From contig NZ_JBBEOI010000013.1 in NCBI RefSeq assembly GCF_037860755.1, positions 1-36,970 of the forward strand: a stretch of 36,970 nucleotides of DNA, written 5' to 3'. Below, piece by piece: positions 2,978 to 9,908 of the stretch (positions within the stretch are counted from its first letter, which is position 1; every line of letters starts with the position of its first letter). A program made the translations under genes and the position numbers. The DNA is from Aquipuribacter hungaricus (GTDB taxonomy: Bacteria; Actinomycetota; Actinomycetes; Actinomycetales; JBBAYJ01). The notes under the pieces were generated by a model that worked only from the letters and a program-made list of their open reading frames with translations, had not been told where the DNA came from and searched no databases.

Positions 2978-2999
2978 GCGGGGCGGCGGGGGGACCGAC

Positions 3000-3028
3000 G
3001 ACCCGGCGGCACGGTCGGCCGCCGGGTC
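3000..3028 (-). terminator. Hairpin terminator of the XRE-TPR gene
   Basis: A perfect 11-bp GC-rich stem (3000-3010 with 3018-3028) and a 7-nt loop lie 30 nt after the regulator stop codon. There is no U-tract, as is common in actinobacteria. It separates the regulator from folC. Confidence 0.6.
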
Positions 3029-3058
3029 ACCGGACGCGGGTGCTCAGCCGGGTGGCCC

Positions 3059-4405
3059 TCAGACGGTGAGGCCGGGACCGGCGGCCGAGCCGACCCGCAC
3101 CGACGACGGCCGGAGCCCGACCGCGTCGAAGGCCTGCTGGAACGCCTCGAGGGCGCCCTCGGTGCGGCCGATGTCCATGAGCCGGTCGCCGAGGTCGCGC
3201 CAGGCCTGCGCGGCCTGGCGGGTGGCGGACATCATCGACAGCGTGTCCGCGGCACGGCGGTACTCCGCCTCGGCGGCCGCGTGGTCGCCCCCGGCGGCCA
3301 GCGCGTCGCCCAGGACCGTGCGCGCGACGCAGGACTCCAGCCGCGGCGTGTCGCCGAGCACGGCGATCGCGGTCTCGGCGGAGGCGCGGGCGGCGTCGGT
3401 CTCGCCGGTGCGCAGGTGGGCGGTGGCGCGGATCCGGTGCCAGTAGGCCATGTCGACCTCGCTGCCGAGCTGCTCCAGCGGCTGGCGGATGGCCAGCAGC
3501 GACTCCACGGCCTCGTCGACCTGGGGCGGCTCGGAGACCAGGAGCAGCGAGGCGAGCGAGAGCTTGAGCCGGAAGAAGTCGCGGGTGTCCGGGCCCTCGG
3601 ACAGGAAGGCCACGGCGCGGCGCGCGTGGTGCAGGGCGCGCTCGACGTGCCCGCTCTCCTCCGCGGCGAGCGCGGCGTTCCAGTGCAGGCTGCCCTGGCC
3701 GACGCGGCTGCCCACCTGCTCGGCGTCCTGGAGCATCTCCTCGGCCAGGTGCTGGGCGTACAGCAGGTCCCCGCGGTGCAGGTGGACGCCGACGAGCGTC
3801 GCGGCCAGGCGCAGGTGCTCGTCGGTGCCACCGGCGCCCAGGCGGGAGGACGCGGCGACGGCGGCGGCCCCCGCGTCGGCGGCCTGGTTGAGGTCGCCGG
3901 CCTGGAGCAGGCTCTGCAGCAGCAGCACGCCGGTCGAGGCGACACCGACGGCGGCGTCGCCGGTGAGGGCCCGGGTGTGCAGCGGCAGCAGCGTGCTGAA
4001 CGCGGACTCCAGGTCGCCGGAGCGCTCCTGGGCCCGGGCGAGCACGAGCAGGGCCTCGTCGTGCAGCCGGCGGGGCGCACCGCGGGCGCCGATGACGGCG
4101 GAGGCGCGGGTCATCGCCTCGTCGAGGTCGCCCGTGACCAGGGCGTGGCGGGCGTGCTCGAGCTCCAGCTCGGGGACGCGCTCCTCGGGGGCGGCGCTGC
4201 CGTGGCGCAGGAAGTGCGCCGACACGTCGAGGCGCTCGGCGAGGCGCTGGAGGACGGCGTCGCTCGGCGTCCGCTTGCCCGACTCGATGAGCGACAGGTA
4301 GCTGGGCGACAGGTCGGACCCGGCCAGCTCGGTCTGGGAGATGCGGCGGTCCTCGCGGACGGCGCGGAGGCGCTCGCCCAGGTCGCCGCTGTCGTGCTCG
4401 GTCAT
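3059..4405 (-). CDS. XRE-family DNA-binding regulator with TPR array (RRNPP-like architecture)
   Basis: The protein has 448 residues. Residues 9-66 form a Cro/C1-type helix-turn-helix (SQTELAGSDLSPSYLSLIESG carries the recognition region). From about residue 80 to 440 I count some nine helix-turn-helix repeats of TPR type, for example ALVTGDLDEAMTRA, AQERSGDLESAFS, LAAEESGHVERALHHARRA and LGDALAAGGDHAAAEAEYRR. An XRE domain followed by a TPR superhelix is the architecture of the RRNPP regulators (Rap/Rgg/NprR/PlcR/PrgX). There the TPR groove binds a short secreted and re-imported peptide. The start has an excellent Shine-Dalgarno GAGGAGG 4 nt before the ATG. A gene for a 45-residue secreted peptide diverges 190 bp away. 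The gene is monocistronic, ended by the hairpin at 3000-3028. The regulator class is clear; the ligand is inferred. Confidence 0.85.
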   Translation of the reverse strand: MTEHDSGDLGERLRAVREDRRISQTELAGSDLSPSYLSLIESGKRTPSDAVLQRLAERLDVSAHFLRHGSAAPEERVPELELEHARHALVTGDLDEAMTRASAVIGARGAPRRLHDEALLVLARAQERSGDLESAFSTLLPLHTRALTGDAAVGVASTGVLLLQSLLQAGDLNQAADAGAAAVAASSRLGAGGTDEHLRLAATLVGVHLHRGDLLYAQHLAEEMLQDAEQVGSRVGQGSLHWNAALAAEESGHVERALHHARRAVAFLSEGPDTRDFFRLKLSLASLLLVSEPPQVDEAVESLLAIRQPLEQLGSEVDMAYWHRIRATAHLRTGETDAARASAETAIAVLGDTPRLESCVARTVLGDALAAGGDHAAAEAEYRRAADTLSMMSATRQAAQAWRDLGDRLMDIGRTEGALEAFQQAFDAVGLRPSSVRVGSAAGPGLTV

Positions 4406-4464
4406 CGGTCCTCCTCGGTCCCCGTCCCCGGCCGGGCGCGGTGGCGCCCAGGGTGAGAACTACG

Positions 4465-4536
4465 CTGTGACAGTAGCGCGCCCCGCTGTGACTGGGACAT
4501 GCTTCGCCCCCGACGGACCCTGTGAGCACACTGTGA
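4465..4536. promoter_or_regulatory. Four CTGTGA repeats between the XRE regulator and the mini-peptide gene
   Basis: The hexamer CTGTGA occurs on the plus strand at 4465-4470, 4486-4491, 4520-4525 and 4531-4536, with start-to-start spacings of 21, 34 and 11 bp. The first copy extends to the perfect palindrome CTGTGACAG (4465-4473). The last two form TGTGA-N6-TGTGA. The repeats fill the centre of the divergent 190-bp control region, where an autoregulating XRE dimer would be expected to bind. Operator function is inferred. The spacing suggests binding on one face of the helix for three of the four copies. Confidence 0.55.
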
Positions 4537-4595
4537 GTCCACTCCGCGCACGCAGCGGATCCGCACGACCACCCTCGATGACCGGGAGAGACTCC

Positions 4596-4733
4596 ATGCC
4601 CAGCACCCCCGTCCGCGCCCTGATCGCCCTGGCCGCCTCCGCGCTCCTCGTCCTGGGGGCCGCGGGCGCCGCGACCGCCTCCGCCCCGGAGACCGCGACG
4701 TTCGGTCCCGGACCGGTCTGCTGCGCCGGCTGA
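4596..4733 (+). CDS. Secreted mini-peptide precursor (45 aa), candidate signal peptide for the XRE-TPR regulator
   Basis: ATG at 4596 follows GGGAGAG (about 4584-4590) with a 5-nt gap, a good ribosome site. The product starts MPSTPVRAL, followed by a hydrophobic core (IALAASALLVLGAAGAATA) and a signal-peptidase I site of AxA type (TASA). The mature C-terminal part would be only about 15-17 residues, ending TFGPGPVCCAG: small, proline/glycine-rich, with two adjacent cysteines. No other domain fits in the product. The gene diverges from the XRE-TPR regulator and is closed by a strong hairpin at 4781-4815. An upstream ATG at 4578 lacks a ribosome site. The size, signal peptide and position match phr/pheromone precursor genes of RRNPP systems. 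The signalling role is an inference, and I do not recognise the family. It could instead be a small cell-envelope or disulfide peptide. Confidence 0.7.
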   Translation: MPSTPVRALIALAASALLVLGAAGAATASAPETATFGPGPVCCAG

Positions 4734-4780: not shown

Positions 4781-4815
4781 ACCGCGCGGCCCGGTCCCCG
4801 ACCGGGCCGCGCGGT
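4781..4815. terminator. Bidirectional hairpin between the mini-peptide gene and ileS
   Basis: A perfect 15-bp stem (4781-4795 with 4801-4815) with a 5-nt loop lies 48 nt after the peptide stop and 12 nt after the ileS stop on the other strand. It isolates the peptide transcript. Confidence 0.8.
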
Positions 4816-8293: not shown

Positions 8294-9829
8294 TCAGTGG
8301 TGGTGGCCGCCGCCCAGGTCGGGCTCGGGCAGGGGCGGGTCGTCCGGGCCCAGGATGTGCGCCACCGCCATCATCCCCAGGTCGCTGTGGGTGCTGAAGT
8401 GGCAGTGGTACATCGCGCGGCCGGTGAAGTGCCGGAACCGGGTCAGGAAGGTCACGCTGCCCCCCTCCTTGCCCACCAGCACGGTGTCCTCGTACGAGGG
8501 CGAGTCCACCGGGACCCCGTCGACGTGGGTGACCTGGAACGGGTTGACGTGGATGTGGAACGGGTGGACCAGCCCGGTGGGGTTGTGGACCGTCCACTCC
8601 TCGAGGCTGTCGAGCGCGACCACCTGGTCGACGCGGTCGTGGTCGAAGGGCCGCCCGTCCATGCCGAACAGGTTCATCGTCACGTGGCGCCGCCGGTCGA
8701 CGTGCTCGGTCCGCAGGTCGTGCCACGGCTGCAGCAGCGCCGCGACCGGGACGCGGCCGCGGGCCACGGCTCGGCCCTCGCAGCGCACCGTGGCCAGCCG
8801 CGCGGCCGGGAGGACGACCCCGAGACCGACGTCGAAGGCGGCCGTGAGCAGCTCGGTGGTGCCGGCCTCGGTCGCGGTGACGAGCAGGTCGGCCCGCTGG
8901 CCGGCCGCGAGGCGGACCTCGGTGACGGGGACCGGGCGGCGGTAGGGGCTGCCGTCGGCGGCGACCTGCCGGACCTCCAGACCCGGCAGCTGCAGGCGCA
9001 GCACGTCGTTGACGGTGGTGTTGACCAGCCGCCAGCGCTGCGTCTCGCCGGGGCGGATGTCGATGGTCGGCTGCAGCTGCCCGTTGACCAGGCGCACGTG
9101 GCCGTCCTGGCGCACCCGCAGCGGGTCGAGCACGTGGCCGTCGGGGCCGACCTGGGTCGAGTGCAGCAGCAGCACCCGGTCCCGCAGGCCGCGCTGCTCC
9201 AGCGCCGCCTCGCGGGGGGACTGCACGACGAGCGCCCCGGCGAGCCCGGCGAACAGCTGTCGGGCCCCGTCGCCGTGGCTGTGCGGGTGGTACCAGTTGG
9301 TGCCCGGGTGGTGGTCGGGCCGCAGGTCGATCCGGTAGGCCGCCTCGGTACCGGGCGCCACCTGCCGGAAGACGTTGTCCCCGTCGCCCTCGCCGGACAC
9401 GTGGAGCCCGTGGGTGTGGATGTTCGTCGTCGCGCCGAGGTCGTTGACCAGCCGGACGCGCATGCTGTCGCCGGGGTGGACGAGCAGCGTGGGGCCGGGG
9501 AAGCCGCCCTCGTAGCCGAGCACGTGCCAGGTGGCCCCGCCGACCGTCGTCGTCGTCGGCGCGGCGCGCAGGGTGACGTCGAGCACGCCGTCCCGGCTGC
9601 GCAGGACCGGCGGCTCGCGCAGCGGCTCCCCCACCGCGCCGGCGACCCCCGACGAGGAGCTCCCCGACAGCGCGGCCCCGACCGCCGAGGCGCCGGCGGC
9701 CGGGCCCAGCAGGACGCCTGCGGCCCCGGCCGCGAGACCCAGCACGTGGCGCCGGCTGGGCCGCTGACCGTCCCCCCGGGTGCGGCGCTCGTCGTGCTGC
9801 AGGGCGTGGTGCTGGTCGGGCCGGTGCAC
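8294..9829 (-). CDS. Tat-exported multicopper oxidase
   Basis: From the GTG at 9827-9829 (AGGGAG 5 nt upstream) the protein has 511 residues. It begins with a twin-arginine signal (SRRHVLGLA at 25-33, then a hydrophobic stretch ending GASA), so it should be exported folded. All four copper-ligand motifs of the cupredoxin oxidases are present: HTH at 138-140, HPHSHG at 181-186, HPFHIH at 422-427, and [12 protein letters not shown] at 475-486 with Cys476 and Met486 as type 1 ligands. Likely roles are laccase, cuprous or phenol oxidase activity at the cell surface, and the substrate cannot be read. The C terminus ends GGGHHH, which may bind metal. A longer start at 9889 is unlikely, because the promoter at 9879-9908 would lie inside or downstream of it. 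Confidence 0.93.
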
Positions 9830-9878
9830 GGGTGCTCCCTCCGCTCCGGCACGACGGTGTGCACGGAGACCTGGGAGC

Positions 9879-9908
9879 AACTTACGCAAGCCCTCGGCGG
9901 AAGGCGAA
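9879..9908 (-). promoter_or_regulatory. Promoter of the multicopper oxidase gene
   Basis: On the minus strand a -35 TTCGCC (9903-9908) and a -10 TAAGTT (9879-9884) are separated by 18 bp. This gives a start site near 9872 and a leader of about 43 nt ahead of the GTG at 9829. Confidence 0.4.

Follow-up and report, generated by a model that had tools for sequence, protein, structure and literature searches.

A regulator with XRE and TPR domains paired with a short peptide precursor: a candidate RRNPP-like signalling module recurring in Actinomycetota

Signalling of the RRNPP type, in which gene-encoded peptides act inside the cell, is regarded as a feature of Bacillota and of their mobile elements. 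The RRNPP regulators of Firmicutes have the same protein architecture as the regulator described below and are paired with peptides that are encoded alongside them, exported, processed and re-imported. In the Bacillus cereus group, the receptor PlcR, which has an XRE helix-turn-helix (HTH) domain and TPRs, is encoded beside the small secreted precursor of PapR. ComRS and PlcR-type systems control competence or development in Bacillota, and the XIP peptides of streptococci carry a conserved residue pair, WW. The gamma-butyrolactone system of Streptomyces (A-factor/ArpA) also serves cell–cell signalling in the phylum considered here, but there an enzyme makes the signal, a small molecule whose intracellular receptor belongs to another family; it is not a gene-encoded peptide.

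The RRNPP signature, as given in the accessible part of one survey, consists of a small propeptide (10–100 aa) that is secreted through Sec and a receptor of ∼ 250–500 aa with TPRs, the two genes being adjacent (−60 to 400 bp); the survey deals with Firmicutes and viruses only and describes actinobacterial signals as typically small molecules (PMC10075063). In a 2022 paper on RRNPPA evolution, the words actinobacteria, phylum, other phyla, outside Firmicutes, non-Firmicutes and cysteine are absent (PMC9765709). Gamma-butyrolactones are named as actinobacterial signals in the accessible sections of two papers (PMC4748050; PMC13220807), the first of which calls them the best-known cell–cell signal system of the phylum and has a table with 'TPR' among the predicted quorum-sensing genes of Streptomyces, Rhodococcus, Saccharopolyspora and Thermobifida, with no peptide. 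For competence of Micrococcus luteus, environmental signals are favoured over secreted-peptide feedback, at least in the part of the study available (PMC12849477). No description of an actinobacterial system like the one reported here was found among the papers listed in searches of open-access literature; subscription papers and preprints were largely outside the search.

We analysed a 36,970-nucleotide stretch of Aquipuribacter hungaricus DNA (hereafter the window; contig NZ_JBBEOI010000013.1), in which an XRE-TPR regulator gene diverges from a mini-ORF for a short peptide, with 190 bp between the two starts (Table 1). We consider it likely that this locus is an RRNPP-like two-gene peptide-signalling module that recurs through Actinomycetota; peptide binding, maturation and re-import are inferred.

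Table 1. Features of the regulator/mini-ORF locus (window coordinates)
Feature	Position	Strand	Basis
Inverted repeat able to form a hairpin, downstream of the regulator; lacks a T-run	2995..3033	.	Stem scan
XRE-TPR regulator, 448 aa, candidate peptide receptor	3059..4405	-	Pfam domains, AlphaFold2 model, homologues
Codons for nine TPR helix pairs, residues 73–429, putative peptide groove	3119..4189	-	Pfam, AlphaFold2
Codons for HTH domain, residues 6–68	4202..4390	-	Pfam HTH_3 4.7e-11; AlphaFold2 helices
Intergenic direct repeats, CGCTGTGAC twice and ACNCTGTGAG twice	4463..4538	.	Repeat scan, word enrichment
Operator-like site CTGTGACTGGGACATGCTTC, conserved in genus, once per genome, no binding data	4486..4505	.	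Genome scans
Shine-Dalgarno-like GGGAG of mini-ORF	4584..4588	+	7 bases 5' of ATG
Secreted mini-ORF, 45 aa, candidate pheromone precursor	4596..4733	+	Scan, congener conservation, tail selection
Signal-peptide part, residues 1–30, cleavage inferred between ATASA and PET	4596..4685	+	Crude scorer
Predicted mature tail PETATFGPGPVCCAG; vicinal Cys codons 4719–4724	4686..4730	+	FGPGPxCC / YGPGPxCC in congeners
Perfect 16-bp hairpin, stems 4781–4796/4800–4815, between mini-ORF and converging tRNA synthetase gene	4781..4815	.	

A first-pass annotation had described the regulator as a 448-residue XRE protein with about nine TPRs, and the ORF, its Pfam families and the modelled helix pairs agree with that description. 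Pfam matches were obtained for HTH_3 and HTH_31 and, over the cut-off, for TPR_2, TPR_16 and TPR_14. The AlphaFold2 model (mean pLDDT 93.1, built on 25 sequences) predicts a compact five-helix DNA-binding domain followed by nine helix pairs, so that the estimated number of repeats was right. Two residues, W242 and N243, are each kept in 25 of the 27 rows of the regulator alignment. The genome carries a single full-length copy of the regulator, the sole other match being to the HTH alone.

The mini-ORF encodes MPSTPVRALIALAASALLVLGAAGAATASAPETATFGPGPVCCAG, which ends in FGPGPVCCAG. The divergent 45-residue ORF and its good ribosome site, both claimed earlier, hold up, and AGGAG is found 5' of the mini-ORFs in genomes G001 and G002. 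The N-terminal part looks like a signal peptide to a crude N/h/AxA scorer, from which export is inferred; the inferred cleavage after ATASA would leave 15 residues, within the 15–17 expected for the mature tail. The window peptide matches no family in Pfam or NCBIfam, and a search of NCBIfam with the peptides of three relatives gave nothing over the cut-off.

Four of the five parts of the RRNPP signature are met by the observed gene pair, namely the sizes of propeptide (45 aa) and receptor (448 aa), the TPRs (Pfam families plus nine helix pairs) and adjacency (190 bp), whereas secretion is supported only by the crude scorer. In gene content the locus resembles PlcR-PapR, as it also places an XRE HTH + TPR receptor beside a small secreted precursor. 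A profile of the regulator family matched PlcR over residues 1–187 (E 5.9e-8) and a fold search with the regulator model found the PlcR-PapR7-DNA structure (E 9e-6); PlcR was absent among the 50 matches listed by the VIA fold comparison. The window system differs in its phylum, in having nine repeats, in the variable orientation of the peptide gene and in its CC or WP codes, and binding of the peptide is inferred. The TPR superhelix is similar in length to that of Rap with the competence and sporulation factor (4gyo; Z 23.6 over 336 residues) and the regulator also resembles apo-NprR (5dbk; Z 22.4 over 347 residues), but identity is only 8–12% among the alignments listed, and no phosphatase activity or Spo0F partner is known for the window regulator. 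The ComR-ComS (XIP) system likewise combines an XRE-TPR receptor with a short peptide that has a conserved residue pair, and Cellulomonas-like loci lie near comEC; against this, there is no evidence of competence genes as targets and the window genome lacks a second copy of the operator. In both the sequence and the fold comparisons, eukaryotic or unrelated TPR proteins outscored the RRNPP receptors. Fold alone therefore does not identify a pheromone receptor and descent from RRNPP remains open; with the parts of the signature that are met, the locus is best described as working like an RRNPP system, a candidate new branch and not a proven member.

Among genomes of relatives, 36 of 59 contained a match to the regulator at E 1e-3, mostly to the HTH alone. 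Strong full-length relatives were found in two congeners (80–81% identity) and four more distant genomes (37–44%), and all six had a neighbouring upstream secreted mini-ORF with a Cys pair. The congener tails, ..EAFGPGPMCCAG and ..TEAYGPGPACCTT (ends FGPGPMCCAG and YGPGPACCTT), and those further out, ..NANYACCAP, ..DARPATCCTKG and ..GGSMPCCRGF.. (with a longer tail after it), are all encoded divergently; in locus L005 the mini-ORF (tail ..GTITCCSR) lies on the regulator's own strand, and in L006 the Cys pair is further from the C-terminal end. It had been stipulated beforehand that the absence of a mini-ORF from most close homologues, or mini-ORF codons and tail that were less conserved than the DNA, would make the pairing accidental. 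With six of six homologues paired and the genus tail kept as protein, the pairing is not accidental.

Profile searches extended the distribution of the regulator. At E 1e-12, 48 of 396 genomes sampled from the order had a match, the weakest ones being limited to the HTH; at E 1e-25, matches were obtained in 100 of 394 genomes sampled from the class and in 38 of 396 from the phylum. These samples overlap. A scan of named genomes gave 27 loci, including ones from Kineosporia, Streptomyces, Kitasatospora, Kutzneria, Umezawaea, Cellulomonas and Nocardioidaceae. Regulator and mini-ORF pairs with clade-specific tails were found in records of all of these groups except Cellulomonas, and in further families, so that the module is wider than the first-pass annotation knew.

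Mini-ORFs were counted by a fixed criterion: ATG or GTG start, a Shine-Dalgarno core of at least 4 nt, basic N-terminus, uncharged hydrophobic 10-mer, 26–100 aa and a distance of no more than 800 bp, with a CC tail defined as CC within the last 18 residues. A secreted mini-ORF with a CC tail was found near 81 of 157 regulators (two cases being doubtful: L209, and L080, where the first regulator is truncated and the peptide listed belongs to its neighbour) and any secreted mini-ORF near 122. The loci comprise the best-scoring matches plus 40 hand-chosen from the 103 class-level matches that had no locus; they are not a random sample and favour high-scoring matches. We dropped 19 duplicate loci and 20 background stretches before counting; 157 is still a slight overcount because the near-identical pairs L042/L110 and L043/L111 were left in. 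L042 (JAJAYQ010000108.1) is filed as a Spirochaetaceae MAG, yet its regulator is at near-zero distance from that of the actinobacterial L110 and the contig is probably misbinned. No secreted mini-ORF met the strict criterion at 35 regulators, some of which are contig edges or start-codon misses. In the Cellulomonas loci L048 and L052 no mini-ORF was found, the only signal-peptide-like match in L048 being the end of rpsT. A relaxed look added CC-tail ORFs for L043/L111, L044, L208, L118, L188, L203 and L006, and a GNWPDPM ORF for L087.

By the same fixed criterion, 400 kb of the own genome (G000) contained 38 mini-ORFs, none of them with a CC tail. With a looser scorer, 437 kb yielded a single chance CC ORF in addition to the target, and 223 kb of homologue flanks lying more than 900 bp out yielded none. 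Among 21 control loci with XRE genes that lack a full TPR match, 16 were usable; two of these had any secreted mini-ORF and one had a chance CC, in a 90-residue ORF. These background scans, together with conservation, rule out a chance ORF in GC-rich DNA.

Both arrangement and tail type track the clades of the regulator tree. When only the first CC ORF per regulator is counted, 49 lie divergently upstream (48 of them within 400 bp), 17 convergently downstream, 13 upstream on the same strand and two downstream on the same strand, so adjacency is observed to persist despite changes in gene order. We also observed two paired duplications (L034 and L051), each with two regulators and two mini-ORFs whose tails differ. 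In the tandem cluster L035, several copies of the regulator are accompanied by only one CC mini-ORF. At four loci of a family that we call Micromonospora-like as a guess only (L124, L128, L132 and L135), two CC precursors with similar ends (GDFCC/SDFCC; GSYCC/SDYCC) flank one regulator. Peptides of the CC family are 30–72 aa long (median 43). AxA sites are present in 71 of the 81 distinct CC peptides, compared with a mean of 57 and a maximum of 69 in 500 shuffles; they are not enriched in the 21 W-type peptides (16 vs. a shuffle mean of 12.9 and maximum of 19). The Streptomyces flavotricini locus L044 and the S. goshikiensis plasmid locus L208 have, besides a CC ORF (..DIPLCC), a second downstream ORF with NNTGSxFxPR in both.

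Sister branches have the same gene pair with Cys-free tail motifs such as NWP, PWPK and WNHPG. In one Cys-free branch, (I/V/T)GNWPDPM is found two to three times, in tandem, at L010, L011, L083, L084, L086 and L087 and at least once at L088. Families outside the class have ORFs of 28–35 residues with ends such as GYPWPK, GFPWPK, ANWPHH, ANWPKH and GWPKH. The shortest of them (28–30 residues) consist of a hydrophobic leader and about six residues, e.g. MRRMRYLLVSLAALASVLWAGAANWPHH, and we infer that such a product would be hard to see as anything other than a signal.

Two groups of regulators depart from these patterns. Among the distant relatives of the large-genome family f37, L156, L159, L162, L163 and L166 have a divergent secreted mini-ORF in which a conserved core after the hydrophobic stretch, AAN(A/I/T)GP (AAAAGPH in L162), replaces the conserved C-terminus; no such mini-ORF was seen at L157 and L207, and those of the weaker f37 matches that were inspected lacked a CC peptide. 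A second regulator paralogue (family f35; L191–L196 and L198) has no CC mini-ORF, and a secreted mini-ORF is not a typical neighbour in its clade (L191–L198). All seven of these f35 loci have a conserved 52-residue membrane-like ORF ∼ 660–673 bp upstream on the same strand.

Selection on the tail was observed within the genus, where the last ten codons have a pN/pS of 0.36 vs. 0.89 for the rest and differences mostly at third positions (6, 6 and 13). Tails were also more constrained than the rest in family f38b (0.30 vs. 0.52), family f9 (0.61 vs. 1.25) and the GNWPDPM branch (0.21 vs. 1.00), but not in the Micromonospora-like set (0.53 vs. 0.50). Values for the rest are inflated where lengths differ, because rows were aligned from the C-terminus without gaps. 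The residues before CC correlate with regulator distance over all pairs (Spearman 0.15, reached by no shuffle), whereas beyond a distance of 0.8 the correlation is 0.05, a value reached by 61 of 500 shuffles. Residues before CC follow the regulator only among close relatives, and deep co-evolution of tail and receptor is unsupported.

The intergenic region contains CGCTGTGAC at 4463 and 4484, 21 bp apart, and a second repeat pair, with CTGTGAG, at 4520 and 4531, 11 bp apart. The repeats noted earlier at 4465–4536 are real, but clear conservation in the genus is confined to the vicinity of 4486–4505. There, CTGTGACTGNGNCATGCTTC is conserved and was observed exactly once in each of three congeneric genomes, allowing up to two mismatches. 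At up to two mismatches, the genome contains only the local site for the operator 20-mer; the scan thus points to no regulon, and an operator-based regulon was set aside. In the window-Kineosporia clade, the sequences upstream of 13 regulators contain the word TGTGAC 18 times (at most five in 100 shuffles); it occurs 15 times in the Micromonospora-like clade (shuffle maximum nine) and nine times in the Cellulomonad-like clade (six). It is not enriched in the Nocardioidaceae-like set (four vs. six), and the four copies in the Streptomyces set merely equal the shuffle maximum. These counts are descriptive only since related sequences are not independent. Further clades have conserved upstream blocks of their own, e.g. 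TTAAC..GTTAA arms or ACATTTTACAATGT. Each unit had also been thought to be closed by its own hairpin. Hairpin-forming repeats are present, but a scan found no stem with a T-run after it, and so they are not standard intrinsic terminators.

A Mur-ligase C domain gene, which we take to be folC, and a gene for a nucleoside diphosphate kinase flank the module on one side; a class I tRNA synthetase gene, presumably ileS, and a multicopper oxidase gene do so on the other. The oxidase gene lies beyond the tRNA synthetase, at 8297–9886, with no apparent link to the module. None of these four scanned neighbours, all ordinary metabolic or tRNA synthetase genes, is a modification, export or immunity gene of the sort expected beside a RiPP or bacteriocin precursor. 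For the homologues this check is partial as many neighbouring ORFs have no Pfam match (seven of nine in one scan); nameable recurrent neighbours are seryl-tRNA synthetase, ribosomal protein S20, comEA/comEC-like genes, DNA polymerase III delta and LepA. A viral scan matched 23 stretches and confirmed none; with the window copy among ordinary genes, a mobile or phage origin for it was rejected. Regulator homologues were found in 16 actinobacterial plasmid records. An unannotated phage record from human faeces (MT836207.1, 185–1093) has a partial relative, which matches 68% of the regulator at 32% identity; a version carried by phages would be interesting. In a Micrococcales MAG (L032), Cellulomonas endophytica (L048) and C. 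marina (L052), the regulator is downstream of comEC and near rpsT and lepA homologues; L032 also has comEA-like and holA-like genes and is the only one of the three with a CC peptide, and L048 has a holA-like gene. A competence regulon was considered on account of this proximity. No operator link was found and competence stays a lead for that reason.

In the mechanism that we propose, the mini-ORF product would be exported through Sec and cut by signal peptidase, perhaps with further trimming, to a short peptide whose code is the C-terminal FGPGPVCCAG. The peptide or a fragment of it may re-enter through an oligopeptide permease; three SBP_bac_5 (oligopeptide-type) binding proteins are encoded in each of the three congeneric genomes. 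Inside the cell, it would bind the concave groove of the TPR domain, whose fold is predicted, and alter binding of the divergent regulator at the CTGTGAC sites of the shared intergenic region, so that the pair would control itself and probably other targets too. Tail binding in a quorum-type circuit, which the first-pass annotation had also proposed, remains an inference, as do maturation, re-import, the direction of regulation, the regulon and action between cells vs. within the cell.

Alternatively, the regulator might control the peptide without sensing it, the TPRs binding something else and the peptide acting as an antimicrobial, surface-active or metal-binding effector. The operator-like site in the peptide's promoter region, the absence of binding data, the potential of the CC pair to chelate metal and the position of the regulator near an amino acid adenylation (NRPS-type) gene on one Streptomyces plasmid can all be cited in favour of this explanation. 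We regard it as unlikely, given that the leader plus about six residues of several branches would be too short for most effectors, that tails vary by clade and some are Cys-free, and that no modification or immunity gene was seen among the scanned neighbours.

The Cys pair itself could be central, if the peptide worked outside the cell as a redox or metal probe and the regulator read its oxidised or loaded form. CC tails are indeed spread across a very broad clade, CC forms the final two residues in 52 of 79 CC-tail peptides and, in 77 of the 81 distinct ones, no other Cys is present after residue 20. Yet the Cys-free tails of sister branches with the same gene pair make this explanation very improbable, and a disulfide with the receptor was rejected for want of a conserved partner, as Cys occupies no regulator column in more than 14 of 27 rows and occurs once in the window regulator. 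The suggestion that the CC pair adds disulfide chemistry remains possible for CC tails; since related branches do without Cys, it cannot be general. There is also very little to recommend a pair of the toxin-antitoxin or phage-repressor kind, in which the XRE regulator would keep a small membrane-active toxin or membrane-stress peptide repressed: the peptide is short and hydrophobic, with a basic N-terminus, and diverges from an XRE repressor-like gene, but in the window genus and f38b constraint is stronger on its polar tail than elsewhere, CC peptides show an enrichment of AxA sites, the tRNA synthetase neighbour is kept in the window copy and both congeners, and a toxin repressor needs no nine-repeat TPR domain.

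Under the signalling interpretation that we prefer, recurrence of the pair with short conserved peptide ends suggests a so far unrecognised chemical language in the phylum. A broader proposition, which the present evidence leaves evenly balanced, is that Actinomycetota have an ancient RRNPP-like pheromone family of their own, with clade-specific codes, in which the shortest precursors would be freed by signal peptidase alone and some members may control competence or development. The C-terminal Cys pair of the largest group is possibly redox-gated, other groups having WP or GNWPDPM motifs instead. The proximity to comEC makes a link to natural transformation, as with ComRS, worth testing. Because the tails can be read from the sequence, the open question becomes directly testable. 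If the proposal is true, antibiotic producers such as Streptomyces and Kitasatospora would have many predictable peptide signals that could be synthesised and tested at once, and the peptide tails would be possible triggers of silent gene clusters.
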